Assembly (NCBI GenBank): GCA_009694375.1
Contig: SHVB01000013.1
Coordinates: 1 to 64,000, forward strand
Length of the DNA stretch: 64,000 nt
Origin: Acidimicrobiia bacterium
GTDB taxonomy: Bacteria > Actinomycetota > Acidimicrobiia > Acidimicrobiales > VFJN01
Direction of reading: 5' to 3'
Shown here: positions 34,431 through 56,299 of the stretch, piece by piece
How positions within the stretch are numbered: the first letter of the stretch is position 1
Layout of the letters: each line of letters opens with the position of its first letter
Program-made: the position numbers and the translations under genes
The notes under the pieces: model-generated
Database searches by the model: none
Seen by the model: only the letters and a program-made list of their open reading frames with translations
Told to the model about the DNA's origin: nothing

Positions 34431-35615
34431 TCAGGGGGTCCAGCGCACCGGCATGGATTCGAAGCCGGTGATGAAGTTCGCGGGACGCATCGGGGTGGGG
34501 CCGGCGAGTTCCAGGTCGGGCATCCGCGCCATCAACCGTTCGGTCATCACACTCACCTCGAGCCGGGCCAGGCTGGCGCCGAGGCAGAAGTGTGTGCCAA
34601 ACCCAAAGGCAACGTGATCGTTAGGACTGCGTTCAATATCGAACTCAAACGGGCGATCAAAGATCTCCTCGTCACGATTAGCGGAGTGGTAGAGCAGCAC
34701 CACCTCCTGTCCTTTACGCAACTGCTGGCCGCGCAACTCCGTATCCTCGGTGGCCACGCGGGACATCGTTTTGATCGGCGTCACCCAGCGCAGCATCTCC
34801 TCCACCGTCGAACCCAACAGTTCGGGCCGGTCGAGAAGTTTCTGCCGCTGATCGGGGTTGCGCACCAACTGTGCGATGCCTCCACTCACCACGTGACGGG
34901 TGGTCTCATCGCCTCCGACCAAGATCAGCAAGGACTCCTGCATCAACTCATCGTCGTCGAGCATGTCGCCGTCTACCTCGGCGTGGACCAGCACGGACAT
35001 CAAATCGATGTCCACCGGCCGGGTGCGTCGCTCGGCGATCACCTTGGTTGCATAGGCCTGGTACTCCAAGAAGGCGGTGGCCGCCGCCATCAAGGCCTCG
35101 TCGGTGGCTTTATTGGACTGGGCGGAAACCATGTCGTCGCTCCAGGTGAGCAGATCAGCCCGGTCCTCAGGAGCCACGCCGAGCGCATCACCGATCATGA
35201 CCATCGGCAGTGGGGCGGCGATGTCGCGTACCAAGTCGCATGACCCCTTCTCGTATACCGCATCGATGATCTCGTCGCACACGGCACGAATCTTGGCTTC
35301 GAGGTCCCGAACCCGACGGGGCGTGAATCCCTTGCTCACCAACTTCCGGCGACGGGCATGATCGGGATCGTCCATGTCGATCATCATCGGCATCGGGCCC
35401 ATACCCGGGACCGCCCCACCGGCGCTCGAAAACGTATTCGGGTTGCGCTCCACGACCTTCAGGTCCCGGTAGCAGGCAATCCCCCAAACGCCATTGGCTT
35501 CGTCGAAATACACGGGAGCGTTGGTCCGCATCCAGCGGTAAAGGTCGTGGGGGTCGCTGGCGTAGAACTCCCCCGCCAGTAGGTCGATCTCCGGGCGCGT
35601 GGGATGGTCAGCCAT
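34431..35615 (-). CDS. Cytochrome P450, CYP142-like
   Basis: A 394-residue soluble P450. The I-helix oxygen-binding segment is [17 protein letters not shown], the K-helix ExxR is in VEEMLRW, and the haem loop is [17 protein letters not shown] with the axial Cys near residue 344. From memory, the chain closely follows mycobacterial CYP142 (steroid C26/C27 monooxygenase) at the N-terminal [27 protein letters not shown], and the C-terminal [14 protein letters not shown]. It would hydroxylate the sterol side-chain terminus using ferredoxin-supplied electrons; no ferredoxin gene is adjacent. It faces the TetR gene and shares the neighbourhood of the KstR-like operator. Confidence 0.88.
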
Positions 35616-35832
35616 CCGGCGATTCTCGCATACCGGACCGGATCAACCCGATTGCGAACAGCCGATTACAGGAAAGAATCCGGGGCCACGGCGAGCCCCC
35701 GCCGGGCGGCGGAAACGCCGATCCGCTCCGACCCCCACGCGGGGCCGGAACGGGGCAATCCTCGGGCGGCGTAGGCCCGGCATACTGGGAGTCCCCCTAC
35801 CCAAACCTCTCACAGAAGCCCGAGACCCAGAT

Positions 35833-37233
35833 ATGGCGCTACACGCCCGAAACACGATTCGCGACGAACTCAACGCCAGTGTGTTTGCCGGCCAAGACCT
35901 CTCCACGGCCCTGCCCAAGTATCGCTTTCCCGACCGGGAGATTGACCCCGACCACGCCTATCAGGTGATCGCCGATGAGATCATGCTCGACGGCAACGCC
36001 CGCCAGAACCTGGCCACGTTCTGTCAGACATGGGAGGAACCGCAGGTCACCAAACTCATGGAGTTGGCGATCAACAAGAACATGATCGACCGCGATGAGT
36101 ACCCGCAGACCGCCGAGATTGAGCGGCGGGCCACCCACATGATGGCGGATCTCTGGAACGCCCCCGATGCCGCCAACACCGTCGGCACCTCCTGCATCGG
36201 ATCTTCGGAGGCATGCATGTTGGGCGGCATGGCCGCCAAGTGGCGCTGGCGAGCCCGCCAAGCCGCCGCCGGCCGACCCACCGACCGACCCAACATGGTG
36301 TGTGGTGCAGTACAGGTCGTGTGGCACAAGTTCGCCAAGTATTGGGATATCGAAATGCGCGAGGTGCCCATGGCCCCCGGCCAGTACTTCATGACTCCAC
36401 AAGACGTGCTGGACCGAGTGGACGAAAACACCATCATGGTGGTGCCCACCCTGGGACTCACCTACACCGGTGTCTATGAGATGGTGAAACCCATTGCGGA
36501 TGTTCTCGATCAACTGCAGATCGACAGCGGGCTCGACGTCGACATCCACGTCGATGCCGCCAGCGGCGGATTCCTCGCCCCGTTCTGCGCCCCACACATG
36601 GAGTGGGACTTCCGATTACCGCGGGTGAAGTCGATCAGCGCATCAGGCCACAAGTTCGGTCTTGCGCCGCTCGGGGTTGGGTGGGTGGTCTTCCGTGACA
36701 GCTCCGAACTCCCCGATGACCTGATTTTTCATGTGAACTACCTCGGTGGCGACATGCCGGTCTTCCAGATCAACTTCTCCCGGCCGGCCGGTCAGATCGT
36801 GGCCCAGTACTACGACTTCCTGAGGCTCGGACGCGACGGCTACCGGCGGGTGCACGACGCCACCTACGCCACCGGAAAATATCTGGCGGAGGAGATCACC
36901 CAAATGGGGATCTTCGAACTGCTCCACGACAGCGATTCCACCACCGGCATTCCCTGTGTCACCTGGCGCATCCCGGAAGGGGTTGACCTCGGCTTCACCC
37001 TCTACGACCTGGCCGACCGTTTGCGCATCAAAGGCTGGCAGGTGCCCGCCTACACGCTCACCGGCGATGCCTCGCACATCGCCGTGCAACGTATCCTGGT
37101 GCGCCAGGACGTGAGCCGAGACCTGGCCAGCCTACTCATGGACGATTTCCGCGCGGCCCTTGCCCACCTCGGTCGGCACCCCATCTCAGTGCCGATGAGC
37201 AAGGAGGAATCCGCTGGCTTCAACCATCTCTGA
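35833..37233 (+). CDS. gad: Glutamate decarboxylase
   Basis: A 466-residue PLP enzyme with the same length as E. coli GadB and clear family segments: [32 protein letters not shown], and the PLP lysine in [10 protein letters not shown] (Lys274). The C-terminal ...FNHL resembles the GadB autoinhibitory tail. It converts glutamate to GABA, consuming a proton, as used in acid stress. No GadC antiporter gene is in the window. The ATG at 35833 is chosen because GadB-type homology begins there; the frame is open upstream. A hairpin between it and the convergent PAP2 gene probably ends both. Confidence 0.93.
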
Positions 37234-38292: not shown

Positions 38293-39453
38293 ATGGCTCT
38301 CACGGACACGACGGTGGCAGTGACGCTCGGCTTCTTGCCCGCCTCGTTGGCCGTGCCCGACACCGATCACCCCGGGCTTTTGCGGGCCGGCCCGCGTGCG
38401 GCGGCTCCCTATGGTTGCGGGAGCATCGAGCGGCACGAGTGTCCAGCAACAGACTCGTGTCGGGACGATGCCGTCCAGCCCGACCTGCTCGACTTCGGCT
38501 TCGACAGGGTAGATCTGTCGGGCATCGACACCCTTCAGAGCACGTTCGCCCGCGTGGCGGCGGCCGGCCACATCTCCGACGATGAGGCCGCGATGATCCG
38601 CTCGGCGCTGGAGGGCACCGTCCTGCGAACCTTCAGCGGCCACACCCTCACGGTGAGACACGTGGCCAGCGAGGGCTTCATCATGCGAAAGAGCGGCCCG
38701 AACGGGATGCCCGTCGTCGGGACGCGCTCTACGGGCATAAACGACCACGGCTCGGCCACCTCGGTACACATCGACCAGGACGTGTACGGCACACCCCTGA
38801 CACAGGTCATGGACGGTCGGGCACCGCAGCTGTTCCGCCACGACTCACCTGACGGGAAGAACCACGACGTCGGACTCATGCTGGTCAACCTGTGGATCCC
38901 ACTGCAGCAGATCACCCAGCCGCTGGCGCTGGCCGACGGGCGCAGCGTCGATCGGCGCCGCCACCAGCTGCGCTTCGGGCTCGGCACCCAGTCCTTCCTC
39001 GAGCGCGACGGGGACATGGTGATCAACGACATCTGGACACTGCTTCACGATCCGGACCAGCGCTGGTACCTCCGCTCCGACATGGACCACCAGAGCGCCT
39101 ACGTGTTCAACACGTTGAGCACGCCGCATGGGGCGTGCATCCTGCCGGGGGAGGACGTCGCCGAGCAGTGGTACCACTGGTTGGAAGATGCCGAGGCTGC
39201 GGTCACGGCCGGTGATGTCGCGGCGCTCGACGAGGCGGTCTCGCTGGTCACACCGGCGCTCCCGACGGACGTGCCCTCGGCGTTGCGGGCCGCCATCGCC
39301 GCCATGGCCGCCTTGGTCGACGAAGCGCGCCGCGATCCCGCGGCGGTGTGCGGGCGGCGGGCCGAGGAATGGCTGACAAGGTCGCGGGCCGCCCGTAACC
39401 GGGTGATCCGCATGTCGCTCGAACTGCGGATAGTCATCTCGGTCGACACCTAG
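38293..39453 (+). CDS. CmcJ/NvfI-like oxidoreductase family protein
   Basis: A 386-residue protein resembling the CmcJ/NvfI family (a double-stranded beta-helix group related to 2-oxoglutarate/iron enzymes, also named after the cephamycin gene cmcJ). The diagnostic block LMLVNLWIPLQQITQPLALA followed by DGRSVD is clear, preceded by a HIDQD segment that could supply metal ligands, and followed by YVFNTLSTPHGAC. The start is fixed by GGAGG four bases upstream of ATG. The last 90 residues are helical and Arg-rich, beyond the usual domain. The gene stands alone in its orientation between PAP2 and the acyl-CoA dehydrogenase operon. Substrate unknown. Confidence 0.65.
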   Translation: MALTDTTVAVTLGFLPASLAVPDTDHPGLLRAGPRAAAPYGCGSIERHECPATDSCRDDAVQPDLLDFGFDRVDLSGIDTLQSTFARVAAAGHISDDEAAMIRSALEGTVLRTFSGHTLTVRHVASEGFIMRKSGPNGMPVVGTRSTGINDHGSATSVHIDQDVYGTPLTQVMDGRAPQLFRHDSPDGKNHDVGLMLVNLWIPLQQITQPLALADGRSVDRRRHQLRFGLGTQSFLERDGDMVINDIWTLLHDPDQRWYLRSDMDHQSAYVFNTLSTPHGACILPGEDVAEQWYHWLEDAEAAVTAGDVAALDEAVSLVTPALPTDVPSALRAAIAAMAALVDEARRDPAAVCGRRAEEWLTRSRAARNRVIRMSLELRIVISVDT

Positions 39454-39514: not shown

Positions 39515-40639
39515 TCAGTGGGGGCGTAGGTCACCAGTGGCGATCAGGTGTCCAAGCCGATCGAGTTGGTGCCGGGCCGAGCCGAGCTCGTGCTCTAGCT
39601 GCATCGCCCATCGGAAGTAGCGGTGGAGCGGGTAGTCGGTGTCGATGCCGATGCCGCCGTGGAGGTGCTGGCACGCGAACGATGCGGACTGCCCGGCCTC
39701 GGCGGCCAGGTACTTGGCCACCAGGACGTGCTCGGTGGCCGGTCGCCCGGACGACAGCCGCCAGGCGGCCTCCCATGTGGTCATGCGGATCGTCTCCGCC
39801 GCGATGTACGCATCGGCCGCCCGCTGGTGAACGGCTTGGAAACTTCCGATCGGGCGGTCGAACTGGACCCGTTCGCGCACGTAGGCGGCGGTCATCTCCA
39901 GCGCCCGCTCGATCACCCCAAGCTGTGTGGCGCAGATCGCGACCGTGGCCCGCTCGCTCAACCAGCGGAGCACCTCGCCACCATGCCCGTCGGTGTCGAG
40001 CCTTGCACTGGGTTCCGCGCCCGCCAGCTCGAGGCGCGAGCGCGGTTGGCCATCAGGCGTGCGTTGTTGCACAACGTCGACCCCCGCGGCGGTCGGCTCC
40101 ACCCAGAACAGCCCGATCGTGCCATCGTCGCAGCGGGCCGGAACGAGGATGTGCGAGGCCTGCTCGGCGTAAGCGACGTTGACCCGCACGCCGGTCAGTC
40201 GAACGGACGCGCCGTGGCGAGCGGCACGCGTGGACGGTGCCAAGGGGTCTGCCGCACCGCCATCTTCGAGAGCGACGCTGAGCAGGCGGTCACCGGCAAC
40301 CACCTCGGCGAGCCACGTCCGTTCGGGCCCGCTTCCGAACTCGGAAAGGACCAACGCCCCCAAGGCCAACGTGGCCTGCGCCGGCACCACCGCCACATGG
40401 CGGCCCACTTCCTGGAGCACCCGGCACAGCGCCAGGAACCCCAAACCCGAGCCTCCGTCTGCCTCCCCGATGCCCACGCCGAGAAGATCGGCGGTGGCCA
40501 GCGCCCGCCAGGCCCGCTCGTCCCACCCACCGGGGGTCGCCTCGATCTCCCGCAGGCGCTCGACGGTTACGAGGTCGCCAAGGATGGTGCGAACAAGCGC
40601 ACCAACCTCCTGCTCCTCCTCAGTAAAGGTGAAGTCCAC
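39515..40639 (-). CDS. Acyl-CoA dehydrogenase, divergent subunit
   Basis: A 374-residue acyl-CoA dehydrogenase fold protein that has lost most canonical flavin-loop motifs: the SEPDAGSD loop is replaced by VALEDGGAADPLAP, and the usual C-terminal EGTxEI is absent. Conserved are the YVRERVQFDRPIGSFQAVHQ helix and the HLHGGIGIDTDYPLHR segment. In sterol-degrading actinobacteria, pairs of one canonical and one degenerate subunit form alpha2beta2 dehydrogenases; the gene 4 bp upstream is the likely partner. GTG at 40639 is chosen for its fit to the family N-terminus (DFTFTEEEQEV). It is the last gene of the TetR-BVMO operon. Confidence 0.85.
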   Translation of the reverse strand: MDFTFTEEEQEVGALVRTILGDLVTVERLREIEATPGGWDERAWRALATADLLGVGIGEADGGSGLGFLALCRVLQEVGRHVAVVPAQATLALGALVLSEFGSGPERTWLAEVVAGDRLLSVALEDGGAADPLAPSTRAARHGASVRLTGVRVNVAYAEQASHILVPARCDDGTIGLFWVEPTAAGVDVVQQRTPDGQPRSRLELAGAEPSARLDTDGHGGEVLRWLSERATVAICATQLGVIERALEMTAAYVRERVQFDRPIGSFQAVHQRAADAYIAAETIRMTTWEAAWRLSSGRPATEHVLVAKYLAAEAGQSASFACQHLHGGIGIDTDYPLHRYFRWAMQLEHELGSARHQLDRLGHLIATGDLRPH

Positions 40640-40643
40640 GGCC

Positions 40644-41819
40644 TCAGTCCTTGTAGTGGGGCAGACCGAGGCCAGCCATGGCGATGATGTCCCGTTGGAT
40701 CTCGTTCGTGCCCGCACCGAAGGTCAGGATCAGGCCGTTGAGGTAGGCGGAGCGAACCCTGCCTTCGACCACCGATCCCGGGCTTCCCTCGTCCAGCAGC
40801 CCGGCGACGCCGATCACCTCGAGGAGCGCTTGGGCGGCTTCGAGGTTGAACTCGCTGCCGAAGACCTTGATGGCGGAGGACTCGGCCATGTCGGGGCGAC
40901 CCCGGTCGGCCGCCCACGCCTGCTTCCAGTTCATGAGGCGCAGGGCCTGCGCCTTCGCGTACACCCGAGCCAGGTTGTGCTGCACCCAGGCCACCTCGAT
41001 GACCGGCCGACCGTCCACCACGGTGTGGCGAGCCCAGTCGGTCACATCGGCGGTCAGGCGCTGGAGCCGACCGACCGTCATGAGCGAGATCCGCTCCCGA
41101 TTCAACTGGCCGACGATGAGCTTCCAGCCGTTGTTCTCCCCGCCGATGAGATGATCGCCCGGCACCCGAACGTCGTCGTAGAACGTGGCGCTGGTGGTGA
41201 CACCGCCCACGGTGTGGACCGGCTGGTAGGAGAACCCCGGCGCCGAAGTGGGGACCATGAAGATGGACAGCCCGGCGTGTTTGTCGACATCAGGATCGGT
41301 GCGAGCCGCCAGCCAGACGTAGTCGGCGTAGCTGGCGAGGCTCGTCCACATCTTCTGGCCGTTGATCACCCATTCGTCGCCGTCGCGCACCGCTTTCGTG
41401 GTGAGGCCCGCCAGATCGGTGCCGGCATCGGGCTCGGAGTAGCCAATGGCGAAGAACAGCTCGCCGGCCATGATGCGCGGGCAGAAGAACTCCTGCTGAG
41501 CCTCGGTGCCGTAGTCCATGAGCGTGGGGCCAACGGTGTTCAAGGTGAGGAAGGGCAGGGGGAACCCCACCGCCTGGACCTCGTCAGCGAAGATGAACTG
41601 CTCGATCGCGGAGCTCTCCCGACCGCCGAACCGGATCGGCCAGCTCTGCCCGAGCAGTCCAGCCGCGCCCATCCCTGCCATGGCGGCACGAAACTCGGGC
41701 CCCCCGCCCTCCAAGTCGATATTCAGTTCGGCGCGAAGCGCGGGCGTCATCATTTCCGAGAGGTAGCTGCGGAGTCCGGCGCGAAAGGCCAGCTGGTCGG
41801 CGGTGAGCTCTAGCTGCAT
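40644..41819 (-). CDS. Acyl-CoA dehydrogenase, canonical-type subunit
   Basis: A 391-residue acyl-CoA dehydrogenase with the flavin/substrate loop AIGYSEPDAGTDLAGL, NGQKMWTSLASYADYV and the C-terminal FGAGTNEIQRDIIA. The Glu of the usual EGT is Ala here (AGT), so the catalytic base, if any, is elsewhere or in the partner. It is encoded 2 bp behind the cupin gene and 4 bp ahead of the second dehydrogenase, so the three are one transcript. A heteromeric dehydrogenase acting on a ring-derived or sterol-derived acyl-CoA is inferred, not shown. Confidence 0.88.
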   Translation of the reverse strand: MQLELTADQLAFRAGLRSYLSEMMTPALRAELNIDLEGGGPEFRAAMAGMGAAGLLGQSWPIRFGGRESSAIEQFIFADEVQAVGFPLPFLTLNTVGPTLMDYGTEAQQEFFCPRIMAGELFFAIGYSEPDAGTDLAGLTTKAVRDGDEWVINGQKMWTSLASYADYVWLAARTDPDVDKHAGLSIFMVPTSAPGFSYQPVHTVGGVTTSATFYDDVRVPGDHLIGGENNGWKLIVGQLNRERISLMTVGRLQRLTADVTDWARHTVVDGRPVIEVAWVQHNLARVYAKAQALRLMNWKQAWAADRGRPDMAESSAIKVFGSEFNLEAAQALLEVIGVAGLLDEGSPGSVVEGRVRSAYLNGLILTFGAGTNEIQRDIIAMAGLGLPHYKD

Positions 41820-41821
41820 GC

Positions 41822-42286
41822 TCAGGTGTTCGCCTTCCAGTCCTCGATCAACAACTCCATGGTCACTTCGATCATCGGGTTCATGTGCTCGTCGAGGATC
41901 TCGTAGAGGGTGCCCCGATCCGAGTGGCAGCCAAAGAAGACCAGGCCGCCTTCGGGGCCGCCGGTCTCGAGGTGGGGAAGCGATTCCTCCCCGGTGAGCG
42001 CGTAGTCGCCCGCCTTGCGGACCCGGTGCCGCAGCACGCAGCCGTCAGGAGCGAGGTCGTCGAGGTGCTGCTCGCCCTCGAGGACAAGGACCGTGGTCGT
42101 AGCCGTGTGACGGTGGATGTGGCAGTGCCCACCGCCAGGCTTCCACCTCACCAGCATGTCGAGCGTCCCGGCGGCGAGGTCGTGGCCCAGAATCGTGTAG
42201 TCGTGGTCGATCACGAACGACGTGGTGTCCTCGTCGGTAACGTGCCGCCACTTGTACCGGCCCTGATCGATGGCGCTCTGGTTCAC
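41822..42286 (-). CDS. Cupin-domain protein
   Basis: A 154-residue single cupin. The metal-binding motif is unusually His-rich, GGGHCHIHRHTATTTVLVLE, with a second strand set at GCVLRHRVRKAGDYALTGEE. Such proteins act as dioxygenases, isomerases or sensors. The GTG at 42286 overlaps the stop of the Baeyer-Villiger monooxygenase gene (GTGA), so the two are coupled. Within this operon it could process or sense the lactone or hydroxyacid product; that is speculation from position. Confidence 0.8.
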   Translation of the reverse strand: MNQSAIDQGRYKWRHVTDEDTTSFVIDHDYTILGHDLAAGTLDMLVRWKPGGGHCHIHRHTATTTVLVLEGEQHLDDLAPDGCVLRHRVRKAGDYALTGEESLPHLETGGPEGGLVFFGCHSDRGTLYEILDEHMNPMIEVTMELLIEDWKANT

Positions 42287-44076
42287 GTGCACTCCAATCC
42301 GTCGAGGCGGCCATCGGCGCGCCAGGCTTCCAAGATGTCTGCGTACTCGGTGGGGCCGCCGAAGTAGAACCCGGCCTGCAGGGTCTTACGTTCGACCTGC
42401 CCCTCATTGTTGTAGAAGCCGGGGGTGCAGTTGGCCGAGAACTCGGCGGTCCGGCCGCTGCGCTCCAGGACCGCTTCGACCCAGTCGGCGACCGCCTGGG
42501 GCGACGCCTCGATGCGTTCGATGTCTCGCTTGAGGGCGGTGGCGATGGTCCAGGCGCCGTGACGGGCCTGGATCTCGAGGAGGTAGACGAAGTTCGTGGT
42601 GAAACCCGACTGCGCGATGGACACCATGGTGAGGTTCGGAAACCCTTCGAGGTACAGCCCGTGGAACGTTCGCACGCCGTCGGCCCACGCCTCGCTCAGG
42701 CTCAGGCCGTCGACGCCCACGATCGGGAACCCGGCGCGCTTCGAGTAGTCGGTGCCCATCTCGAAGCCGGTGGCCAGGATCAGGCAGTCCAGTTCGTATT
42801 CGACACCGCCCACCACCACGGCCGTCTCGGTGATCTGGTCGACACCGTGACCCTGGGTGTCTACCAAGGTCACGTCGGGCCGGTTGTACGTCGGCAGGTA
42901 GCCGTCATGGAAGCAGGGGCGCTTGCAGAACTGGCGATACCAGGGCTTCAGGGCCTCGGCGATTTCCGGGTCCTTGACCAGAGCATCGACGCGCGCTCGG
43001 ATCTCCTCCATCTTCACGAAGTCGGCGGTCTCCACGGCACGGTCGATCGCCTCCGGTGATAGGTCGGGATCGTCATCAGCGGTGATGATGGCCAGGAGTT
43101 TGGTGAGGATGTCGGTCCAGCCGTCGCCGACCAGGTCTTCCTCCACGAAACCCCCGGCGGTGAGGGTCTGGAAATTGTCGATCCGCTCGCGCTGCCAGCC
43201 CGGCCGCAACGCCTCGGCCCACGCCGGGTCGGTCGGGCGATTGGCTCGCACGTCGACCGACGATGGGGTCCGCTGGAAGACGTAGAGGTGTTCGGCGCTC
43301 TCGGCGAGGTGGGGAATGCACTGCACCGCCGAGGCACCGGTGCCGATGATCCCCACCCGCTTACGGGCCAGGCCGGTGAGGTTCCCGGAGGCATCGCCGC
43401 CCGTATAGCCGTAGTCCCAGCGGCTGGTGTGGAAGGCCCGCCCGGCGAAGGTGTCGATGCCGGCGACGCCGGGCAATTTGGGCTTCTGGAAAAAACCGTT
43501 GGCCAAGCACACGAAACGGGCTCGCATGGCGTCACCCCGATCGGTCTCGATGATCCAACGCCGGGCGGACTCGTCCCAGCGCAGGCCCGTCACCGTCGTC
43601 TGGAGGCACGCGTCGCGGTACAGGTCGTAGGCCTCGGCGATGCGACGAGCGTGGGCGAAGATCTCCGCGCCGTTCGCGTACTTCTCGGTGGGGACGTAGC
43701 CCAGATCCTCGAGCAACGGCAGGTAGACGTAGGACTCAATGTCGCAGGCCACCCCGGGGTAGCGGTTGAAGTACCACGTGCCGCCCACGTCGGCGGCCTT
43801 ATCGATCAACCGGATGGACTCGACGCCGAGCTTGCGGAGGTGGGCCCCCAGCAGCAGGCCACCGAATCCGGCGCCGATGAGGGCCACGTCGACCTCGTCG
43901 GTGAGCGGCGGACGCTCGATCGGTTCCTGCACGTAGATGTCATCAGCGAACCCGGCGCGGTCGCCCTCCACCCAGACGTACTGCTCGATGCCCTCGGGGC
44001 GAAGGCGACGCTCGCGCTCCTCGAGGTAACGACGACGCAGTGCATCGGGGTCGAACGCGAGGTCCTCGGCGCTCAC
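42283..44076 (-). CDS. Baeyer-Villiger monooxygenase (FAD/NADPH)
   Basis: A 597-residue flavoprotein. The FAD Rossmann motif GAGFGG is at residues 68-73, the NADPH motif GIIGTGASA at about 243-251, and the Baeyer-Villiger fingerprint FxGxxxHxxxWD is complete at 210-221 (FAGRAFHTSRWD). It inserts an oxygen next to a ketone to give an ester or lactone. The length and the N-terminal RRRYLEERERRLRPEG extension match cyclohexanone- or steroid-type enzymes. It overlaps the TetR stop at its ATG and the cupin start at its stop. It is the probable first catalytic step of this operon. Confidence 0.92.
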   Translation of the reverse strand: MSAEDLAFDPDALRRRYLEERERRLRPEGIEQYVWVEGDRAGFADDIYVQEPIERPPLTDEVDVALIGAGFGGLLLGAHLRKLGVESIRLIDKAADVGGTWYFNRYPGVACDIESYVYLPLLEDLGYVPTEKYANGAEIFAHARRIAEAYDLYRDACLQTTVTGLRWDESARRWIIETDRGDAMRARFVCLANGFFQKPKLPGVAGIDTFAGRAFHTSRWDYGYTGGDASGNLTGLARKRVGIIGTGASAVQCIPHLAESAEHLYVFQRTPSSVDVRANRPTDPAWAEALRPGWQRERIDNFQTLTAGGFVEEDLVGDGWTDILTKLLAIITADDDPDLSPEAIDRAVETADFVKMEEIRARVDALVKDPEIAEALKPWYRQFCKRPCFHDGYLPTYNRPDVTLVDTQGHGVDQITETAVVVGGVEYELDCLILATGFEMGTDYSKRAGFPIVGVDGLSLSEAWADGVRTFHGLYLEGFPNLTMVSIAQSGFTTNFVYLLEIQARHGAWTIATALKRDIERIEASPQAVADWVEAVLERSGRTAEFSANCTPGFYNNEGQVERKTLQAGFYFGGPTEYADILEAWRADGRLDGLECT

Positions 44077-44702
44077 CGGCTCAGACCGTGTCGGATCAGA
44101 CCGAGGTAGGCCTCGACGACCGCTGCGTCCCTGGAGGCGTCGCCCCCGTGGAGCAACTCCTCGAGGAAGTGGCGAGCGCCCAACAGGAAGTGGGCTTGGG
44201 CATCGACCTCGAGGTCGTCCATCTCCCGGATGACCCCGTCGGCGATGCCGGCACGGATGCGGTCGCCCAACTCATCGACCCAGGCCGACATCCCGTCCCG
44301 GTACAAGTCGGGCTCGAGCAGCTTGATCTCGTCGGCGAGGCGCACGTGGGCGGGATTGCGCCGCAGGTATTCGACGAAGGCCAGCAGTTCCGCTCGGCTG
44401 CGATCGAAGAAGTCCGCGCCGTCCGGCAGGACCAACCCCGCCAACCGGTCCGACAGGTCGAGCATCAGCTCCTGCATGAGCTCGCGCAGCAGATCTCCCC
44501 GGGAACCGAAGTGGTAGTGGACGCTGCCGACCGCCAGGTCGGCGCGATCGGCGATCCGGGCCACCGAGGTGTTCATGAACCCCCGCTCGGAGGCCTCGGC
44601 CAGCGCGGCAGTCAACAGGCGGGCTCGGGTGTCGGCAGACTTGGCGTAGCCCCCCTCCGCACGGTGCACCCCAGCGCCGTCCGTGAAGGGCAGGGCCGCC
44701 AT
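44073..44702 (-). CDS. TetR family regulator of the monooxygenase operon
   Basis: A 209-residue TetR protein with a helix-turn-helix (TSVARIADRADLAVGSVHYH then FGSRGDLLRELM) and a C-terminal ligand domain. It is the first gene of the operon it probably controls (ATGA overlap with the monooxygenase gene), and the 44-bp spacer to the divergent strand holds two palindromes. ATG at 44702 is chosen; the frame extends six codons to a TTG. The inducer may be the ketone substrate or its acyl-CoA. Confidence 0.9.
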   Translation of the reverse strand: MAALPFTDGAGVHRAEGGYAKSADTRARLLTAALAEASERGFMNTSVARIADRADLAVGSVHYHFGSRGDLLRELMQELMLDLSDRLAGLVLPDGADFFDRSRAELLAFVEYLRRNPAHVRLADEIKLLEPDLYRDGMSAWVDELGDRIRAGIADGVIREMDDLEVDAQAHFLLGARHFLEELLHGGDASRDAAVVEAYLGLIRHGLSR

Positions 44703-44708
44703 GGTCAG

Positions 44709-44723
44709 ATCTTGATTCAAGAT
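44709..44723. promoter_or_regulatory. Palindromic operator 1 between TetR and the CoA-transferase strand
   Basis: Perfect 15-bp palindrome ATCTTGA-T-TCAAGAT only 6 bp from the TetR start codon, in place to control both directions. It is likely bound by the adjacent TetR. Confidence 0.7.
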
Positions 44724-44730
44724 TCAGTTT

Positions 44731-44742
44731 CGATCAAGATCG
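44731..44742. promoter_or_regulatory. Palindromic element 2 in the same spacer
   Basis: CGATC-AA-GATCG, five-base arms, 4 bp before the start codon of the small ORF at 44747. It shares ATCAAGAT with the neighbouring palindrome, so it may be a second, weaker repressor site. Confidence 0.5.
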
Positions 44743-44746
44743 CGCC

Positions 44747-44875
44747 ATGGCCGATGCGTGGACCATCCTGTCCACCACCGAGATCGAGATCCTCGGAGAC
44801 CCGCACTATCGGGCGCTGACCGTCGACAATCCAACCCTCGTGGCGGTCAAGGAACCCACGGTGCGGCGGTGGTGA
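44747..44875 (+). CDS. 42-residue leader ORF coupled to the tandem CoA-transferase
   Basis: An ATG-started frame of 42 residues beginning MADAWTILSTTEIEILGDPH and ending in TVRRW. Its TGA overlaps the GTG start of the CoA-transferase (GTGA), the overlap used elsewhere in this window for genuine coupled genes. It starts right after the operators, where a first gene is expected. No domain is recognised, and no clear ribosome site precedes it. It may be a real small protein, a coupling leader, or the shortened front of a former gene. Confidence 0.5.
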   Translation: MADAWTILSTTEIEILGDPHYRALTVDNPTLVAVKEPTVRRW

Positions 44876-47313
44876 CCGGCGCCGAACCGGGTCCGTTCGT
44901 GGGCCTTCGAGGGCTCCGGATCCTGGACTTCTCCACCCAGATCGGTGGCCCTTACTGCTCCAAGCTGCTCGTGGACGCCGGCGCCACGGTCATCAAGGTG
45001 GAGCCGGTTGGCGGCGATCCGATGCGGACCTGGTCGTCCACCGGCGCCGACCTCCACGACGAAGACTCGGCGCTCTTCCGATTCCTAAACGCCGGCAAGC
45101 AGTCCGTCGTCGGCACCATCGACGACGACGCCATCGCCGGCCTGGTGGCCGAGGCAGACGTGGTCATCGAGGCCCACGGGCTCAGCGGCGATGCCGGCGA
45201 ACGGCTCGACGTTGAGCGGCTACGTCGGGAACGGCCCGAACTGGTGGTGGCCTCCATCACCCCGTACGGCCTCACCGGACCCTGGGCGAACCGAGCGGCC
45301 TCGGAGTTCACCCTCCAGGCCGAGTCGGGATCGCTCGGCATCCGCGGCCTCCGGGGCGGCTCGCCGTTCCAGGCCGGCGGTCGTATCACCGAATGGTCCT
45401 CGGGCGTGTACGCCGCCGCCGCCGTGGTCCCCGCCGCCCTCCACGCTCAGGCCACCGGACGGGGCTGCCACCTCGACCTGTCGATGCTCGAGACAGCCAA
45501 CATGGTCTTCACCAACTTCTCCGACACTATGAACCGCCTCCTCAACGGCGGCCCCGGGCGGGCCGAGCACGCCTTCTTGGCCCCCACGGTGGAGACCCCG
45601 TCGATCGAGGCGACCGCCGACGGGTGGGTGGGCTTCTGCACGAACGCTCGCAAACAATTCGAGGCCTTTCTGCTCCTCATCGAACGCCAGGATCTCGTGG
45701 GCGATGAGGAACTGGCCTCGGTCTTCGGGCGGATGGTCCGCTTCGAGGAGTGGACCGGACTCGTCAGCGACTGGTGCTCGGGCCACCGCACCGATGCCAT
45801 CGTCGACGCCGCCGCCGCCCTTCGGATCCCCGTGGCCCCCGTCGGCGACGCCGAAGCGGTGCTGGCCCACCCGCACAACATCGACCGCGGTGTCTTTGTG
45901 GCCGATGCGTCCAACCGCTTCCGCCAACCGCGCCGGCCCTGGCGCGTCGATGACGCCGATCCGCCGCCCCCATCCCCGGCCCCCAGCCTCGATGAGAGCG
46001 GCGACACTCCACGTTTTCCTCCGCGAGCCGAGCCGGGCCCGTCGCTGTCGGCCGGCGCCGGCCCGGATGACCTCCCGCTGCGGGGCCTGCGCATCCTGGA
46101 CCTGACGGCCTGGTTCGCGGGACCCTCGTGCACCCAACTCCTGGCCAGCCTCGGGGCCGAGGTGATCCATGTGGAGTCGGCCCGCCGACCCGACGGGATG
46201 CGGGGGATCGGCGTGATGATGGTCGGTAGCTACGAGCAGCACTGGGAGGCCAGCCCCCACTTCCTTCAGGTGAACACCAACAAGTCCGGGTTGACCCTCG
46301 ATCTCGGCGATCCCACCGGCTTCGCGCTGCTGCAGCGGATGATCGCTCACTGCGACGTGGTGGTGGAGAACTTCACCCCCCGGGTCCTCGACGAGTTCGG
46401 GCTCACCTGGGACCTCGTGCGACAGATCAATCCCCGGGCGATCCTGGCCCGGATGCCCGCCTTCGGCCTCACCGGAGCGTGGCGGGATCGCCCCGGGTTC
46501 GCGCAGACCGTCGAGCAGTTCTCCGGCCTGGCCTGGATCACCGGATTCCCATCCGACCAGCCGCGCATCCCACGAGGACCGTGTGACCCGGTGGCCGGCA
46601 TGCACGCCGCTCTGGCCGTCGTGGTAGCCCTGGCCGATCGGGACCGAACGGGTCGCGGCCACCTGGTCGAGAGCCCGCTGTCCGAGACGAGCCTGAACAT
46701 TGCCGCTGAACAAGTGCTCGAGTGGACGGCATACGGCCGCCGGATGCAGCGGGAGGGAAACCGCTCGGCGTTGGCGGCCCCCCAGGGCCTCTACCCCTGC
46801 GTGCCTGGGGTTGTCGCCGTCGATTCGTGGGTGGCCATCTCTGTCGGCGACGACCGGCAGTGGCGGGCGCTCCGCGCCGCGCTCGGTGATCCCGCCTGGG
46901 CGCTCGATGCTGCCCTCGACACGCGCGAAGGCCGACGCCTCCAGCATGATCTCATCGACGAACACCTGGGGCGCTGGACGGCTCACCACCGGGCGGTGGA
47001 CGCGGCGGCTGCGCTCCGGGCCGTCGGAGTGACCGCGTCGGCGGTGGTGGACGCGTCGCGTGTCCTTGAGGCCAACCCACAGATGGAAGCCCGGGGATAC
47101 TTCGAAGCCCCCGATCACCCGGTCGTGGGGCCGATGCCGCTCCCCTCGCTGCCGTTCCGCATGAGCGGCGTGGACCAATGGCTGCGCCGCCCGGCCCCCA
47201 CCCTGGGGCGCGACAACGGCACCGTTCTGCGGGATTTCCTCGGCCTCTCAACCGAAGAGATCGATGCCCTCGAGGCGAGCTCGGTGATCGCCCAGCACCC
47301 GGTCGAGCGATAG
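44872..47313 (+). CDS. Tandem CaiB/BaiF (class III) CoA-transferase fusion
   Basis: An 813-residue protein of two complete class III CoA-transferase halves. Half one (about 1-370) opens with LRGLRILDFSTQIGGPYCSK; half two (about 400-813) opens with LRGLRILDLTAWFAGPSCTQ; a Pro-rich linker joins them. At the place of the catalytic Asp both halves show Glu (LDLSMLETAN and VESPLSETSLN). These enzymes move CoA between carboxylic acids and normally work as interlocked dimers, which a fusion could mimic in one chain. It is divergent from the monooxygenase operon and shares its operators, so it probably activates the acid released after lactone opening. The GTG at 44872 is chosen by the overlap. Confidence 0.88.
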   Translation: MTGAEPGPFVGLRGLRILDFSTQIGGPYCSKLLVDAGATVIKVEPVGGDPMRTWSSTGADLHDEDSALFRFLNAGKQSVVGTIDDDAIAGLVAEADVVIEAHGLSGDAGERLDVERLRRERPELVVASITPYGLTGPWANRAASEFTLQAESGSLGIRGLRGGSPFQAGGRITEWSSGVYAAAAVVPAALHAQATGRGCHLDLSMLETANMVFTNFSDTMNRLLNGGPGRAEHAFLAPTVETPSIEATADGWVGFCTNARKQFEAFLLLIERQDLVGDEELASVFGRMVRFEEWTGLVSDWCSGHRTDAIVDAAAALRIPVAPVGDAEAVLAHPHNIDRGVFVADASNRFRQPRRPWRVDDADPPPPSPAPSLDESGDTPRFPPRAEPGPSLSAGAGPDDLPLRGLRILDLTAWFAGPSCTQLLASLGAEVIHVESARRPDGMRGIGVMMVGSYEQHWEASPHFLQVNTNKSGLTLDLGDPTGFALLQRMIAHCDVVVENFTPRVLDEFGLTWDLVRQINPRAILARMPAFGLTGAWRDRPGFAQTVEQFSGLAWITGFPSDQPRIPRGPCDPVAGMHAALAVVVALADRDRTGRGHLVESPLSETSLNIAAEQVLEWTAYGRRMQREGNRSALAAPQGLYPCVPGVVAVDSWVAISVGDDRQWRALRAALGDPAWALDAALDTREGRRLQHDLIDEHLGRWTAHHRAVDAAAALRAVGVTASAVVDASRVLEANPQMEARGYFEAPDHPVVGPMPLPSLPFRMSGVDQWLRRPAPTLGRDNGTVLRDFLGLSTEEIDALEASSVIAQHPVER

Positions 47314-49233: not shown

Positions 49234-49427
49234 CGCTGGGAGGGTCCCTACCCACCGTCAACCAAACCCTCGGCAGACCCGGGTGATTCATCCCTGGGGC
49301 GGCATGGATCAACCAACCGTCCAAGACGCCCCTGGCACCCACCGCCATCTGAGCAGCCGATGTCTCACCGACGTTGACACGTGCCGGTCCAGACTCCGGC
49401 GTCACAGCCTCCGTGTACGGTTCGATC

Positions 49428-52400
49428 GTGCTGCAGCTGCAGGGACATGAGCAGATGGGCGGCCTGGCTGACCAGTTGGCGGCCGTGCTCGCCGCGCCCG
49501 TGGCGGATCCGATGGCTGCGGAATGGATCGTCGTGGGGTCCGCCGGGGTTGACCGTTGGCTTCGCCTCCAGCTCTCGCAGCGGCTGGGATGCTCGGTGGA
49601 CCCGTCATCGACCGACGGCGTCGCCGCCAATCTCGACCTGCTGTATCCCCAGCGACTGGTGCAGCGAATCCTCGCCCCGCGGGACCCGAACGAGCCCGAT
49701 CCATGGGGTGTCGACCAGCTCACATGGGTGGTGCTGGAGGTGCTTGCCGGCCTGGGCTCCGATGCGCGCCTCGGTCCGATCGCACAGCTGGCACCAGGTG
49801 CGACCCGCTGGTCGCGCGCCCGGCGTCTGGCGGATCTCTTCGACCGCTACCTCCTCCACCGTCCGCACATGGTGCGGTCGTGGGGAGCCGGCGATGACGT
49901 CGACGGATTGGGTAATCCCCTTCCCGAGCGAGCGCGCTGGCAGCCGTACCTGTGGCGTTCGGTGCGCGAGCAGGTCGGCATGCCGAGCCCTGCGGAGTTG
50001 ATGCCCGATCAGCTGGCCGCTCTGCGGGCAGGTCAGTGCCCCGACGACGTGCCCGAACGGGTCTCGCTCTTCGGCCTGACCACCATCCCGGGTGGGGCAC
50101 CGTTCCTCGAACTGCTCGACGCGCTCGCGACCCAGCGAGACGTGCACCTGCTGCTCCACCACCCGTCAGCCGCGCTGGCCGACAAGGTCCGGCGTCCGCC
50201 CGGTGTTGTGGGTGGCCTCCACCCGCTCCTGCGCTCGTGGGCCCGCCCGGCGCGAGATACCCTCGTGCTGCTGGGCGACCGCGGGGCGGACGAGCCGATC
50301 GGCCCGGCCCCCACCCCTAGGTCCGCTGTGACCACCGTGCTCCAGCAGGTGCAGGCCGACCTCCGTGCCGATCAGAAGCCGGCCGGCCAGCTGGTCCCAT
50401 CCGCGGACGACCGATCGCTGCGGATCCACTCCTGCCATGGCGCCAGCCGTCAGGTGGAGGTGCTCCGGGATCAGATCCTCCACCTGCTCGCCGACGACGA
50501 CCATCTCCGGGAGGACGATGTCGTGGTTCTGTGTCCGTCGCTCGAGGAGTTCGTCCCCCTGATCGAGGCGGCCTGGGGTCCGAGCGCCTCGTCTAGCCCG
50601 GTGGCAGATGACAACAGCGGGTCGCCAGCGCTGGCCTACCGCATGACCGATCGCTCCCTCGGATCCATCGTGCCCGTCCTGGCCGCCCTAGCCTCGCTTC
50701 TGGAGCTCCTCGACAGCCGCTTCTCGGATGCGGCCGTGCTCGACTTTGCGAACCTAGCGCCGGTCCGCGAACGCTACGACCTCGATGACGAGGACCTGTC
50801 TCGCCTGGCTGACTGGGTGGAGCAGGCCAATGTCCGGTGGGGCCTCGACGCCGCTCACCGACAGCGATGGGGGTTGCCGGCCGGCCATGCGGACGGCGCG
50901 TGGTCCACGGCCCTGGACCGCCTGCTGCTAGGCGTGATGGTCAGCGACGATCCGCTGGCGCTCGGCCCGGGCGAGGTGCTCCCGATCGGAGTCGAAGGTT
51001 CAGGCGTCGCGCTGGCCGGACGCTTCGCGGAACTCCTCGACCGGTTGAAGCTGCTGGCAGACGAGGCCCAACGCCCACGGCCCGTCGGCGAGTGGATAGA
51101 CCTGCTTCGCGACGCCTCGGACCAGTTGTTCGCCACCGAGCGCGGCGGAGAGTGGCAGGCAGCCAAGCTGGCCAACCTGTTCGAGGACATCGCCCAGCAG
51201 GCGGCGATCGGTGGCCAGCCCTCCGCCGTGGATCTCACACTGGCGGAGGTTCGAGCACTCATCGGTCGTCGCCTCCAGGACACCGCCGGTCGGGCCGAGT
51301 TCTTCCGCGGTGGGATCACCGTGACCTCCCTCACGCCGCTACGAGGGCTGCCGCACCGCGTCGTCTGCCTCCTCGGGGTCGACGAATCGGCATTCACATC
51401 AGGCGCCCCCGACGGAGACGACCTCACCTCGCTCGCTCCCGAGATCGGGGATCGAGACCGCCGCGCCGAAACCCGTCAGGCGCTGCTCGATGCGGTCCTG
51501 GCCGCGGAGGACCACCTCATCATCACCCGCACCGGCCACAGCGTGGTCACCAACCAGCCCGTCCCACCGGCGGTGGCGGTCGCGGAGCTGCGCGAGGCCG
51601 TGGCGGCCACCATCGCCGATGGCAAGCGCCAGGAGGCCATGGCCGCGATCGAGATCGCCCATCCCAGGCAGGGCTACGACGAGCGGAACTTCCGGCCGGG
51701 TGCGATCGATCCTGGCGCCACCGTGGCCTGGGGGTTCAACACTTTGGCTCGAGACGGTGCCGATCGACGCCGGATGAACCTGTCGCCGCCCGCGTTCCTG
51801 GAGGAGCCGCTCGCCGTCGACCCCCTGCCGGTGGTGGACCTCGGTGAGCTCCGAGACTTCCTCGAGAACCCGGTGCGATACTTCGTACGTTCGTGCCTCA
51901 GGGTCAACCTCCCCGAGGTTCCCTCGCGCTCCGGGGGCAAGCTCGTCGCCCCGTCGTCGACCTCGAGTGGCTTGGCCCGCGCCTCCGAAGGCCGCAACCT
52001 CGTGCTCGAGCTCGATTCGCTCGAGAGCTGGAAGGTGGCCGACCGCCTGCTGGCCCACCGGCGCTCCGGCGGCGACGTCGGCTCGTTCCGGCGACGGGAA
52101 CGGGCGTCAGACCTCCTGCCGCCCGGCCGTCTGTCCGATCGGGCCATCGACCTCACCGTGGAGAAGGTGGACCCGCTCGTCGATTGCCTCGACGATCTTG
52201 GGGTACTGGGCACGGAACCGATCCAACGGCCCGTCGACGTGAGCCTCCCCGATGGCACGCGGCTGGTGGGATCGGTCCGAGACGACCGCGGGGTCGCCCC
52301 CGGCCCGGTCACGGTCACGGCGTCGCACTGGCACCGCAAGCGCGAGCTCGGTCCGTGGCTCGACCTGCTGGCGCTCACCGCGCAGGATCCCAGCCGTCCG

Positions 52401-52829
52401 TGGACCGCCCAGCTCGTGGCGTCCGCGAAGAGCAAGGCGCGCGTGAAGTCCGTAGCGATCACGCTGCCAGGGGAGTCCGCAACGCAACGTCGAGATCGAG
52501 CGCTGACCGCGCTGTCCACTGTGGTCGGCCTGTTCCAGCGCGGTCGGACCGAGCCGCTTCCGATCTTCCCCGAGACCTCGATCGACCTCTACGAGGGCAA
52601 GCCGAGGGCGGCCACGTGGAGCGGCTACCAGGGCATGGGTGAGGGTGTCGATCGCTGGGTCCAGCTGGTGTTCGGCTCGATCACGTTCGCCGAGCTGCTC
52701 GCCATTGAGTGCCGGCCCGACGACCCCCCTGGTGGGAACGGGGGACGGGCGGAGCGCTATGCCTCGGTCCTCTGGGGTGCGTTCCACGACTCCCAAGCCG
52801 CACCCGACGATGACGGGGCCGATCTGTGA
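49428..52829 (+). CDS. recC: Exodeoxyribonuclease V gamma subunit
   Basis: A protein of about 1133 residues, normal for RecC. The N-terminal part has the helicase-like but inactive domains (ADPMAAEWIVVGSAGVDRWL, QRLGCSVD), the middle LRIHSCHGASRQVEVLRDQI and LTPLRGLPHRVVCLLGVDE segments are typical, and the end carries the inactivated nuclease-like domain. RecC recognises Chi-type sequences and holds RecB and RecD. The start is uncertain: GTG at 49428 fits the family N-terminus, GTG at 49413 is an alternative. Its stop overlaps the recB start (GTGA), and recB overlaps recD, giving a fully coupled recCBD operon. Confidence 0.93.
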   Translation: MLQLQGHEQMGGLADQLAAVLAAPVADPMAAEWIVVGSAGVDRWLRLQLSQRLGCSVDPSSTDGVAANLDLLYPQRLVQRILAPRDPNEPDPWGVDQLTWVVLEVLAGLGSDARLGPIAQLAPGATRWSRARRLADLFDRYLLHRPHMVRSWGAGDDVDGLGNPLPERARWQPYLWRSVREQVGMPSPAELMPDQLAALRAGQCPDDVPERVSLFGLTTIPGGAPFLELLDALATQRDVHLLLHHPSAALADKVRRPPGVVGGLHPLLRSWARPARDTLVLLGDRGADEPIGPAPTPRSAVTTVLQQVQADLRADQKPAGQLVPSADDRSLRIHSCHGASRQVEVLRDQILHLLADDDHLREDDVVVLCPSLEEFVPLIEAAWGPSASSSPVADDNSGSPALAYRMTDRSLGSIVPVLAALASLLELLDSRFSDAAVLDFANLAPVRERYDLDDEDLSRLADWVEQANVRWGLDAAHRQRWGLPAGHADGAWSTALDRLLLGVMVSDDPLALGPGEVLPIGVEGSGVALAGRFAELLDRLKLLADEAQRPRPVGEWIDLLRDASDQLFATERGGEWQAAKLANLFEDIAQQAAIGGQPSAVDLTLAEVRALIGRRLQDTAGRAEFFRGGITVTSLTPLRGLPHRVVCLLGVDESAFTSGAPDGDDLTSLAPEIGDRDRRAETRQALLDAVLAAEDHLIITRTGHSVVTNQPVPPAVAVAELREAVAATIADGKRQEAMAAIEIAHPRQGYDERNFRPGAIDPGATVAWGFNTLARDGADRRRMNLSPPAFLEEPLAVDPLPVVDLGELRDFLENPVRYFVRSCLRVNLPEVPSRSGGKLVAPSSTSSGLARASEGRNLVLELDSLESWKVADRLLAHRRSGGDVGSFRRRERASDLLPPGRLSDRAIDLTVEKVDPLVDCLDDLGVLGTEPIQRPVDVSLPDGTRLVGSVRDDRGVAPGPVTVTASHWHRKRELGPWLDLLALTAQDPSRPWTAQLVASAKSKARVKSVAITLPGESATQRRDRALTALSTVVGLFQRGRTEPLPIFPETSIDLYEGKPRAATWSGYQGMGEGVDRWVQLVFGSITFAELLAIECRPDDPPGGNGGRAERYASVLWGAFHDSQAAPDDDGADL

Positions 52830-55800: not shown

Positions 55801-56299
55801 GCAGCTCGATCCGGATGATCCGCTGCGCCCATGGGCAGAGCACCTCGCCTCGGGCCCGTTCGGCGCCCGACTGGCGGGCCACCTCACCGGGTCGATCGAC
55901 CTCGTGGCCCGCATCCACCGCGCGGGGACGCCCGACCGCTTCGTGGTCTGTGACTACAAGAGCAACCGACTGGCCGCACGAGGTGTCACCCCTACCTCTT
56001 GGCACTTCGAGCCCGATCAGCTGGTCGCAGCGATGGCCGATGCCGATTACCCGCTCCAGGCGCTGCTCTACAGCGTGGCCCTGCACCGCTACCTGCGGTG
56101 GCGGGTTGCGGACTACGACCCGGGGGTCCACCTCGGCGGCGTCGGTTACCTCTTCCTTCGCGGGATGGTGGGGCCTGACACCCCGGTACACGGCGGCGCC
56201 CCAGACGGCTTGTTCGAGTGGCACCCGCCGGCGGCGGCGATCCGCGCGCTGTCCGATCTTCTCGATGGCCGTCCCCGTCGTCCGGGCGGTGGGTCGTGA
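52826..56299 (+). CDS. recB: Exodeoxyribonuclease V beta subunit
   Basis: A 1157-residue UvrD-type helicase-nuclease. The Walker A motif EASAGTGKTYALA is near residue 25, motif Ia is VVTFTRTAAAELKDR, Walker B is LIDEFQDTDP, motif IV/V regions include LDTNWRSDPR and VLYVALTRACHHL, and the C-terminal RecB nuclease motif is VVCDYKSNRLA near residue 1040. It unwinds and degrades DNA from double-strand ends and loads RecA after Chi. Both ends overlap neighbours by GTGA, so RecC, RecB and RecD should be made in fixed ratio. Confidence 0.96.
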   Translation: MTALEPFSLHDPLPTGRLAIEASAGTGKTYALASLAARYVAEEGIPIGELLVVTFTRTAAAELKDRVRARLVEFADLLDYTEIPEDLATDAVAAAVWDRDGSVRALRSERVRAAITDFDSATITTIHGFAQQILGTLGSAVLADPDAVLLDDASSIVAQVATDLLVGEAVRADHDLDDVPDLNALCVAASLAIGNPGARLVPNADDDVLPAATRLRGLVDQVVAEVDRRRRAAATQSFDDLLVRLRDAIADDTFGPAAREAIQSRYCVSLIDEFQDTDPVQWSIFDAVFGHLASGDRGAGTALVLVGDPKQAIYAFRGANVHTYLQAAHAPGTDRRNLDTNWRSDPRVLEATEVLLSGATFGDAGIGFQRVAVAEKNKGRAFVTADGTPLPALSLRLVDAHDVPRVKKGDTRFAHGDGAAVTFDEMGSYLRDLLERAHIPDPASDDPGATRPLRPDDIAVLVSANYEAVEIRKALGRMGIPAVISRGDNVLTSEAAGHWHRLLAAVARPTDPRAARAAALSWFGGRDAGWVAAASDADLVELQERLHRWGEHLNAHGVAGFIGLLRSETGVAERVLAREDGDRSMTDVDHIAELLVIAGGRRPSPTSLLALYEQLSGGNDDGDPEADLAARRVESEARAVQIMTTFVAKGLEFPVVCCPSLWRPRGAKADHNVWWDHKDSTRVIDVASKLEWGDADARAERTRAAAAEAVGTNLRVLYVALTRACHHLAVWWLPTGDAPITGLARVLFARGEDGQIDPEAFTADEVDVPFGEDAVAALEPLVARGGGTLDVALVGLSTIDRRRWARPDDRVDDDLVVASLGRTLPRDCARWSFTSITALGGGHHAVLDPTDATLGDGRSADEHDVDGAAADPDIVVGHGIDLPLGDIAGGAGFGNLVHKVFEVADFTAADLAAELGDAVDASLRWNRWPVDPGLLVEGLEAVLRTPLGPLFDGRALCELPRTDRLDELTFDLTLGMAGSIPSDADVGRVLLEQLDPDDPLRPWAEHLASGPFGARLAGHLTGSIDLVARIHRAGTPDRFVVCDYKSNRLAARGVTPTSWHFEPDQLVAAMADADYPLQALLYSVALHRYLRWRVADYDPGVHLGGVGYLFLRGMVGPDTPVHGGAPDGLFEWHPPAAAIRALSDLLDGRPRRPGGGS

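Follow-up and report, generated by a model that had tools for sequence, protein, structure and literature searches.

The 64,000-nucleotide stretch of DNA analysed here (the window; positions 1 to 64,000 of contig SHVB01000013.1, assembly GCA_009694375.1, from an Acidimicrobiia bacterium) carries genes for a TetR-family regulator, a Baeyer-Villiger monooxygenase (BVMO), a cupin and two acyl-CoA dehydrogenases (ACADα and ACADβ) on the minus strand, and a tandem class III CoA-transferase (CaiB) fusion running divergently. The locus is best read as an igr-like cluster for side-chain degradation, joined to a BVMO and a cupin that putatively cleaves C–C bonds. We tentatively propose, with slightly less than even confidence, that under TetR control the cluster serves the catabolism of an alicyclic, isoprenoid-like compound bearing a branched side chain, and that side-chain removal would be followed by the BVMO step. 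For most BVMOs the physiological substrate is not known (PMC4498894). The present one is linked by a conserved operon and promoter to a defined CoA route in several bacterial phyla, and the cupin family tied to it has no name in Pfam or NCBIfam. If alicyclic rings are indeed opened in this way without the classical steroid pathway, the cluster would provide a genetic marker for how persistent organic matter of the isoprenoid type is turned over, a process for which there have so far been predictions like that for SAR202.

The locus lies on contig C13 of a 2.58 Mb genome that is 96% complete. On the minus strand, TetR and BVMO overlap by 4 nt and BVMO and cupin by 10 nt, while the cupin/ACADα and ACADα/ACADβ gaps are 2 nt and 4 nt, respectively. 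This spacing indicates that TetR–BVMO–cupin–ACADα–ACADβ is one coupled operon, as the first-pass annotation of the window had claimed, and each of the named genes is present, has high GC3 and is supported by its family or fold. TetR may instead begin at a TTG at position 44720, which would lengthen it.

The assignment of the monooxygenase was likewise supported. Type I BVMOs are recognized by two Rossmann motifs and the fingerprints [A/G]GxWxxxx[F/Y]P[G/M]xxxD and FxGxxxHxxxW[P/D] (PMC4498894). The window protein contains the Rossmann motifs GAGFGG at residue 68 and GTGASA at residue 245, and the fingerprints GGTWYFNRYPGVACD at residue 98 and FAGRAFHTSRWD at residue 210. Its best solved-structure match was 5mq6 (4.3e-125), and it shares both its sequence group and the two fingerprints with PtlE/PenE, PockeMO (5mq6) and CPDMO, but differs from them in its gene context, which is catabolic here. 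The sole high-scoring NCBIfam match was the equivalog for the neopentalenolactone D synthase PtlE (NF045818, 827.4 bits), as would be expected if the genes formed a pentalenolactone-like biosynthetic or tailoring cluster instead of a catabolic one. We regard this as most improbable: the score lies under the equivalog cut-off of 1100, the CoA-transferase and the two ACADs are of catabolic types, and no terpene cyclase or other biosynthetic signature was found among the annotated neighbours.

The cupin had no sequence match in Pfam, NCBIfam or PDB. His60, His62, His107, Cys57 and Thr66 were kept in 55 homologues, and a structural model (pLDDT 92.9) was closest to the Dke1-type structures 2o1q (Z 15.5) and 3bal (Z 15.2) and to DAD (5bpx, Z 14.7; 4p9g, Z 14.6), with the remaining cupin structures ranking below at Z 13.7 or less. 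Dke1 and DAD bind iron through three histidines (PMC4019311, PMC4219425) and cleave C–C bonds, in β-diketones or an α-hydroxyketone. The HxH plus later His of the window cupin (H60, H62, H107) may correspond to the metal ligands His62/64/104 of the acetylacetone dioxygenase Dke1 (3bal), although identity to Dke1 and DAD in structural alignments is 8–13% and activity is predicted from the fold. Because the fold is closest to Dke1/DAD, the cupin is best modelled as a three-histidine dioxygenase of that kind and a candidate C–C-cleaving enzyme, a better guess than the lactonase role initially suggested for it, which was dropped as the main interpretation. In the open-access literature, no account of a cupin of this kind next to a BVMO was found. 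A second context of cupin homologues, consisting of a BVMO or FMO-like gene and PF04909 amidohydrolases that are possibly lactonases or decarboxylases, was observed in loci L076, L077, L146 and L155 (L numbers denote loci and G numbers genomes, G000 being the window genome).

The two acyl-CoA dehydrogenase genes are adjacent, and each is nearest to its cognate subunit of the ChsE4–ChsE5 type. ACADα matched 4x28_A (3.9e-124) and 6wy8_B (7e-113), and the best solved relatives of ACADβ were 6wy8_A (Tcur3481; 4.5e-75) and 4x28_D (3.7e-67); 4x28 is the ChsE4–ChsE5 (FadE26–FadE27) heterotetramer. E243 of ACADα aligns in the helix-G segment bearing the catalytic Glu of the family, and the Acyl-CoA_dh_M domain found no Pfam match in ACADβ. 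The pair, which is closest to ChsE4–ChsE5 and Tcur3483–3481, thus resembles by sequence an enzyme acting on the CoA esters of steroid side chains. A further CaiB plus ACADα/ACADβ set was found elsewhere in the same genome (G000:C4:115265-118788, L197), with 54% and 44% identity to the window pair, and is followed by genes resembling an ABC transporter.

The CaiB fusion contains two complete PF02515 domains, of which the N-terminal half is nearest to 4ed9 and the C-terminal half to 9fn0_B, a benzylsuccinate CoA-transferase subunit. The nucleophile of class III CoA-transferases is an Asp (Asp169 of YfdW/FRC); Glu207 and Glu605, one in each half, align at this position, and Glu predominates there in both halves among about 40 tandem CaiB sequences compared. 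Paired class III chains are also found in the benzylsuccinate CoA-transferase BbsEF (9fn0), whereas here they are fused in one chain with Glu at the canonical Asp position of both halves. With Glu in place of Asp in both halves, CoA transfer by the fusion is likely, judging from its family. The CoA-dependent route that had been proposed for the locus is supported.

A small open reading frame (ORF) upstream of the CaiB fusion, overlapping its GTG start at 44872 by 4 nt, had also been listed as a component of the divergent arm; the fusion stood, but the small ORF was rejected as an independent gene. In L100, L108, L109 and L110 a full P450 gene lies between CaiB and TetR and is transcribed with CaiB. 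The window ORF reads MADAWTILSTTE, resembling the internal P450 segment DDIWTVLSTVE, and then IEILGDPHYRALTVDNPTLVAVKEPTVRRW, resembling the P450 C-terminus LEILAPPTYSGLTIDSPVLAAVSSLPVRIA. Against a full P450 homologue of the same genome (65% identity; G000:C25:7740-8957), the N-terminal and C-terminal parts scored 46 and 73, with shuffled maxima of 34 and 46, respectively, and each half exceeded 300 shuffles against the C25, L100, L110 and L112 P450s. By this similarity, the small ORF is what a deletion left of a CYP125/126-like P450, the haem-binding region having been lost, although it may be an assembly artefact. The nearest solved structures of the family are CYP125MRCA, CYP126, CYP124 and CYP125. 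The C25 homologue occurs in the same-genus genomes G075 and G148 and in no other genome of 41 sampled, and redundancy with it may have permitted decay of the cluster copy. The relic ORF stays open across the overlap with the CaiB start.

The reduction of the P450 to 42 codons, together with the absence from the operon of an Ltp2 gene that follows the cupin or ACADβ in relatives, would fit a cluster that is decaying and non-functional in the window genome. This explanation has a low probability: every other gene is intact, has high GC3 and retains conserved motifs, neither the promoter element nor the gene overlaps have been lost, and the genome holds a P450 homologue on another contig.

To examine gene linkage, about 85,000 named species genomes were scanned with the cupin; 172 loci resulted, and 80 of these were retained. 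The genomes of related loci often bore the labels Acidimicrobiia or Actinomycetota. Among 32 loci with a cupin identity of at least 58%, 25 had the BVMO no more than 250 bp from the cupin; the CaiB fusion was found within 8 kb in 12 and ACADα in 11, with many contigs being short. BVMO, cupin, CaiB, ACADα and ACADβ occurred together in nine loci (L104, L107, L108, L109, L110, L112, L114, L124 and L126), five of which (L107–L110 and L112) kept the window order CaiB(-)/TetR(+)–BVMO–cupin–ACADα–ACADβ, L112 with a P450 inserted between cupin and ACADα. Cluster proteins were about 55–74% identical across Myxococcota, Candidatus Binatota and Actinomycetota, distantly related bacteria of soil and water. 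The genes are therefore linked in relatives of three phyla, far beyond chance, and the first-pass reading passes its own test of whether they are unlinked in relatives. No paper describing the BVMO–cupin–CaiB–ACAD cluster was found in the open-access literature.

The window BVMO was 70% identical to that of the Myxococcota locus L107 and 59% to the closest BVMO among those sampled from its own order, whose genomes are spread over many families. In a tree of 67 BVMOs, it fell in a cupin-linked set of 23 rows (support 100/99) with members from Myxococcota, Binatota and Actinomycetota; the clustering of the cupin-linked label is partly ascertainment, because these rows were mostly sampled through the cupin. 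In a sample of 60 relatives, the window genome, G012 and G040 were the sole carriers of the cupin, and it was not found in the same-genus genomes G075, G143 and G148. Since the BVMO is nearer to Myxococcota than to its own order and the cupin is patchy among relatives, the data fit horizontal spread of the cluster.

Clusters in relatives often continue with an Ltp2-family protein, an OB_ChsH2_C protein and FAS1_DH/MaoC proteins. The Ltp2-family protein of L109 scored 652.8 bits against NF005892 (threshold 469). An igr-like set of CYP125-type P450, ACAD pair, ChsH-like and Ltp2-like genes is together in relatives such as L109, while in the window genome it is split among C13 (the relic), C25 and C22, where a module is 78% (Ltp2) and 67% (FAS1_DH) identical to L109. 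An α/β-hydrolase (PF07859), a candidate ester or lactone hydrolase by its family, is encoded directly after the cupin in Mycobacterium loci and is also close by in L070, L109 and L120; neither an α/β-hydrolase nor a lactonase was found in the window cluster.

The gene content of the relatives' clusters follows the igr-type logic of propionyl removal (PMC12502768). The M. tuberculosis igr operon (CYP125, ChsE1-E2, ChsH1-H2, Ltp2) and its Comamonas counterpart ORF40-44 are similar to this cluster in having a CYP125-type P450 and a heteromeric ACAD pair, and to the clusters of relatives also in having ChsH-like and Ltp2/DUF35 genes together. The cluster differs from these in that BVMO, Dke1-like cupin, TetR and tandem CaiB form integral parts of it, its ACADs are closest to ChsE4-E5, and the classical steroid-ring markers KstD, KshA and HsaF are absent or weak in the window genome and in most carriers outside Mycobacterium. 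The CYP125-like, ChsE-like and Ltp2-like genes could also belong to the side-chain part of classical 9,10-seco steroid degradation, in which the BVMO would play an accessory role, and high-scoring KshA_C, KstD and HsaF-type genes do occur in Mycobacterium carriers. However, in the 96% complete window genome KstD had no match at E<=1e-60 and TIGR03217 (HsaF-type) none at E<=1e-30, and KshA_C reached 113 bits compared with about 300 in Mycobacterium; many other carriers were alike. A classical steroid ring route is therefore unlikely in the window genome, and we consider classical degradation improbable as an explanation of the cluster.

The order of steps first suggested for the locus (ketone, lactone, acid, CoA thioester, dehydrogenation) is doubtful: the ACADs, together with the neighbouring Ltp2/ChsH-like genes of relatives, resemble a side-chain module that would act before the BVMO. 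In the BVMO-first route, a free cyclic, terpenoid-like ketone would be oxidized, the lactone hydrolysed to an acid, CoA added by CaiB and β-oxidation started by the ACADs. In favour of this route, the enzyme genes of the operon begin with the BVMO, whose linkage to the cupin is the tightest in the cluster; an amidohydrolase or α/β-hydrolase that could open a lactone is present in some relatives, and Mycobacterium loci contain TetR–BVMO–cupin–hydrolase without close ACAD or CaiB homologues nearby. The match of the ACADs to steroid-side-chain enzymes, the P450 and Ltp2/ChsH-like genes in the same clusters and the lack of a lactonase in the window cluster argue against it, and we hold this order to be somewhat unlikely.

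The ChsE-like ACADs and the Ltp2/ChsH-like genes in clusters of relatives instead suggest that side-chain removal precedes the BVMO step. A CYP125/126-like P450 would oxidize a terminal methyl group to the acid, possibly with the C25 copy replacing the decayed cluster copy, and the tandem CaiB fusion would make the CoA thioester by CoA transfer. The ACADα/β heteromer would dehydrogenate this thioester as ChsE4–ChsE5 does, and a ChsH-like hydratase and Ltp2-like aldolase (in the cluster of relatives, on C22 here) would remove propionyl- or acetyl-CoA to leave a ketone. The BVMO would insert oxygen beside the ketone, giving a lactone or ester that the α/β-hydrolase of several relatives could open, the cupin may cleave a C–C bond of a β-dicarbonyl or α-hydroxyketone intermediate, and TetR would repress the genes until an intermediate binds. 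A closely similar order, in which CYP125 side-chain activation leads to a ketone and then to a BVMO lactone, was predicted for SAR202 from genome content, and CaiB-type CoA transferases were also discussed for these genomes (PMC5395668). The BVMOs there are of type II (FMN/F420), whereas here a type I FAD BVMO is in one conserved operon with a cupin. A more specific proposal, in which the cluster is a horizontally spread route for degrading polycyclic, hopanoid- or sterol-like isoprenoids without 9,10-seco cleavage, combining side-chain removal to a ketone with ring expansion by the BVMO and cleavage of a ring or chain by a new Dke1-like iron dioxygenase, all under one TetR, is rather unlikely.

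Several points weigh against side-chain removal followed by BVMO and cupin action. The tandem CaiB has Glu at the catalytic-Asp position, and similarity of fold does not prove the activity predicted for the cupin. No BVMO was found beside 32 of the 39 cupin homologues with less than 50% identity; the neighbours of BVMO-less cupins showed no dominant family (Amidohydro_2 in 4 of 58) and so gave no functional hint. As a control, the C22 Ltp2 was also found in G075 and G148, where the cupin was not found. Ltp2 is thus not specific to the cluster in the window genome, and the Ltp2 module and C25 P450 may serve another pathway there.

Upstream of TetR, the pattern TTGnnn-17 nt-CA(A/G)(T/G)A(T/A) was present in all 11 inspected TetR-bearing loci, the window included, with a AAACTGAAAA-like spacer in most of them. 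The window copy lies a few bases from the TetR ATG and overlaps a 15-bp palindrome with 7-bp arms (44709-44723), which was matched or exceeded by 69 of 5000 shuffles and was not conserved in the relatives inspected. As shuffles equal the palindrome and only the promoter-like element is conserved, the shared double operator described in the first-pass annotation is reduced, on sequence comparison, to one conserved promoter-like site plus a weakly supported palindrome specific to the window.

Table 1. Features of the window in and around the BVMO–cupin locus.
Feature	Position	Strand	Description	Evidence
Second P450 near the locus	34431..35615	(-)	43% identity to cluster-type P450	
Glutamate decarboxylase	35599..37233	(+)		TIGR01788, 627 bits
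CmcJ/NvfI oxidoreductase match	38293..39453	(+)	Below threshold	43.1 bits, cut-off 80
ACADβ	39515..40639	(-)	ChsE5/FadE27-like acyl-CoA dehydrogenase subunit	Pfam; 6wy8_A, 4x28_D
ACADα	40644..41819	(-)	ChsE4/FadE26-like subunit; helix-G Glu E243 in NRERIS	4x28_A, 6wy8_B
Cupin	41822..42292	(-)	Dke1/DAD-like	Model fold; His60, His62, His107 invariant
BVMO	42283..44076	(-)	Type I, PtlE/PockeMO group	Fingerprints, Rossmann motifs, NF045818, 5mq6
TetR-family regulator	44073..44702	(-)	ATG at 44702	PF00440 1.4e-12; conserved beside BVMO
Promoter-like element upstream of TetR	44709..44737	(-)	-35-like TTGATC, 17-nt spacer, -10-like CAAGAT	
P450 relic	44747..44875	(+)	CYP125/126-like, 42 codons; internal piece joined to C-terminus	Shuffle-tested scores
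Tandem CaiB fusion	44872..47313	(+)	Class III CoA-transferase, 813 aa	Two PF02515 domains
RecC-, RecB-, RecD-like genes	49374..58194	(+)	Beside cluster	
SbcC-like gene	58202..61150	(-)	Beside cluster	

In some loci, picking ORFs by GC3 produced spurious antisense genes overlying the cupin and ACADs; these (neighbour clusters 4 and 16) were discarded. Two contigs titled Bifidobacterium breve (L121 and L122) carried a cluster near-identical to that of the Actinomycetota metagenome-assembled genomes L115 and L118, and their titles are probably wrong.

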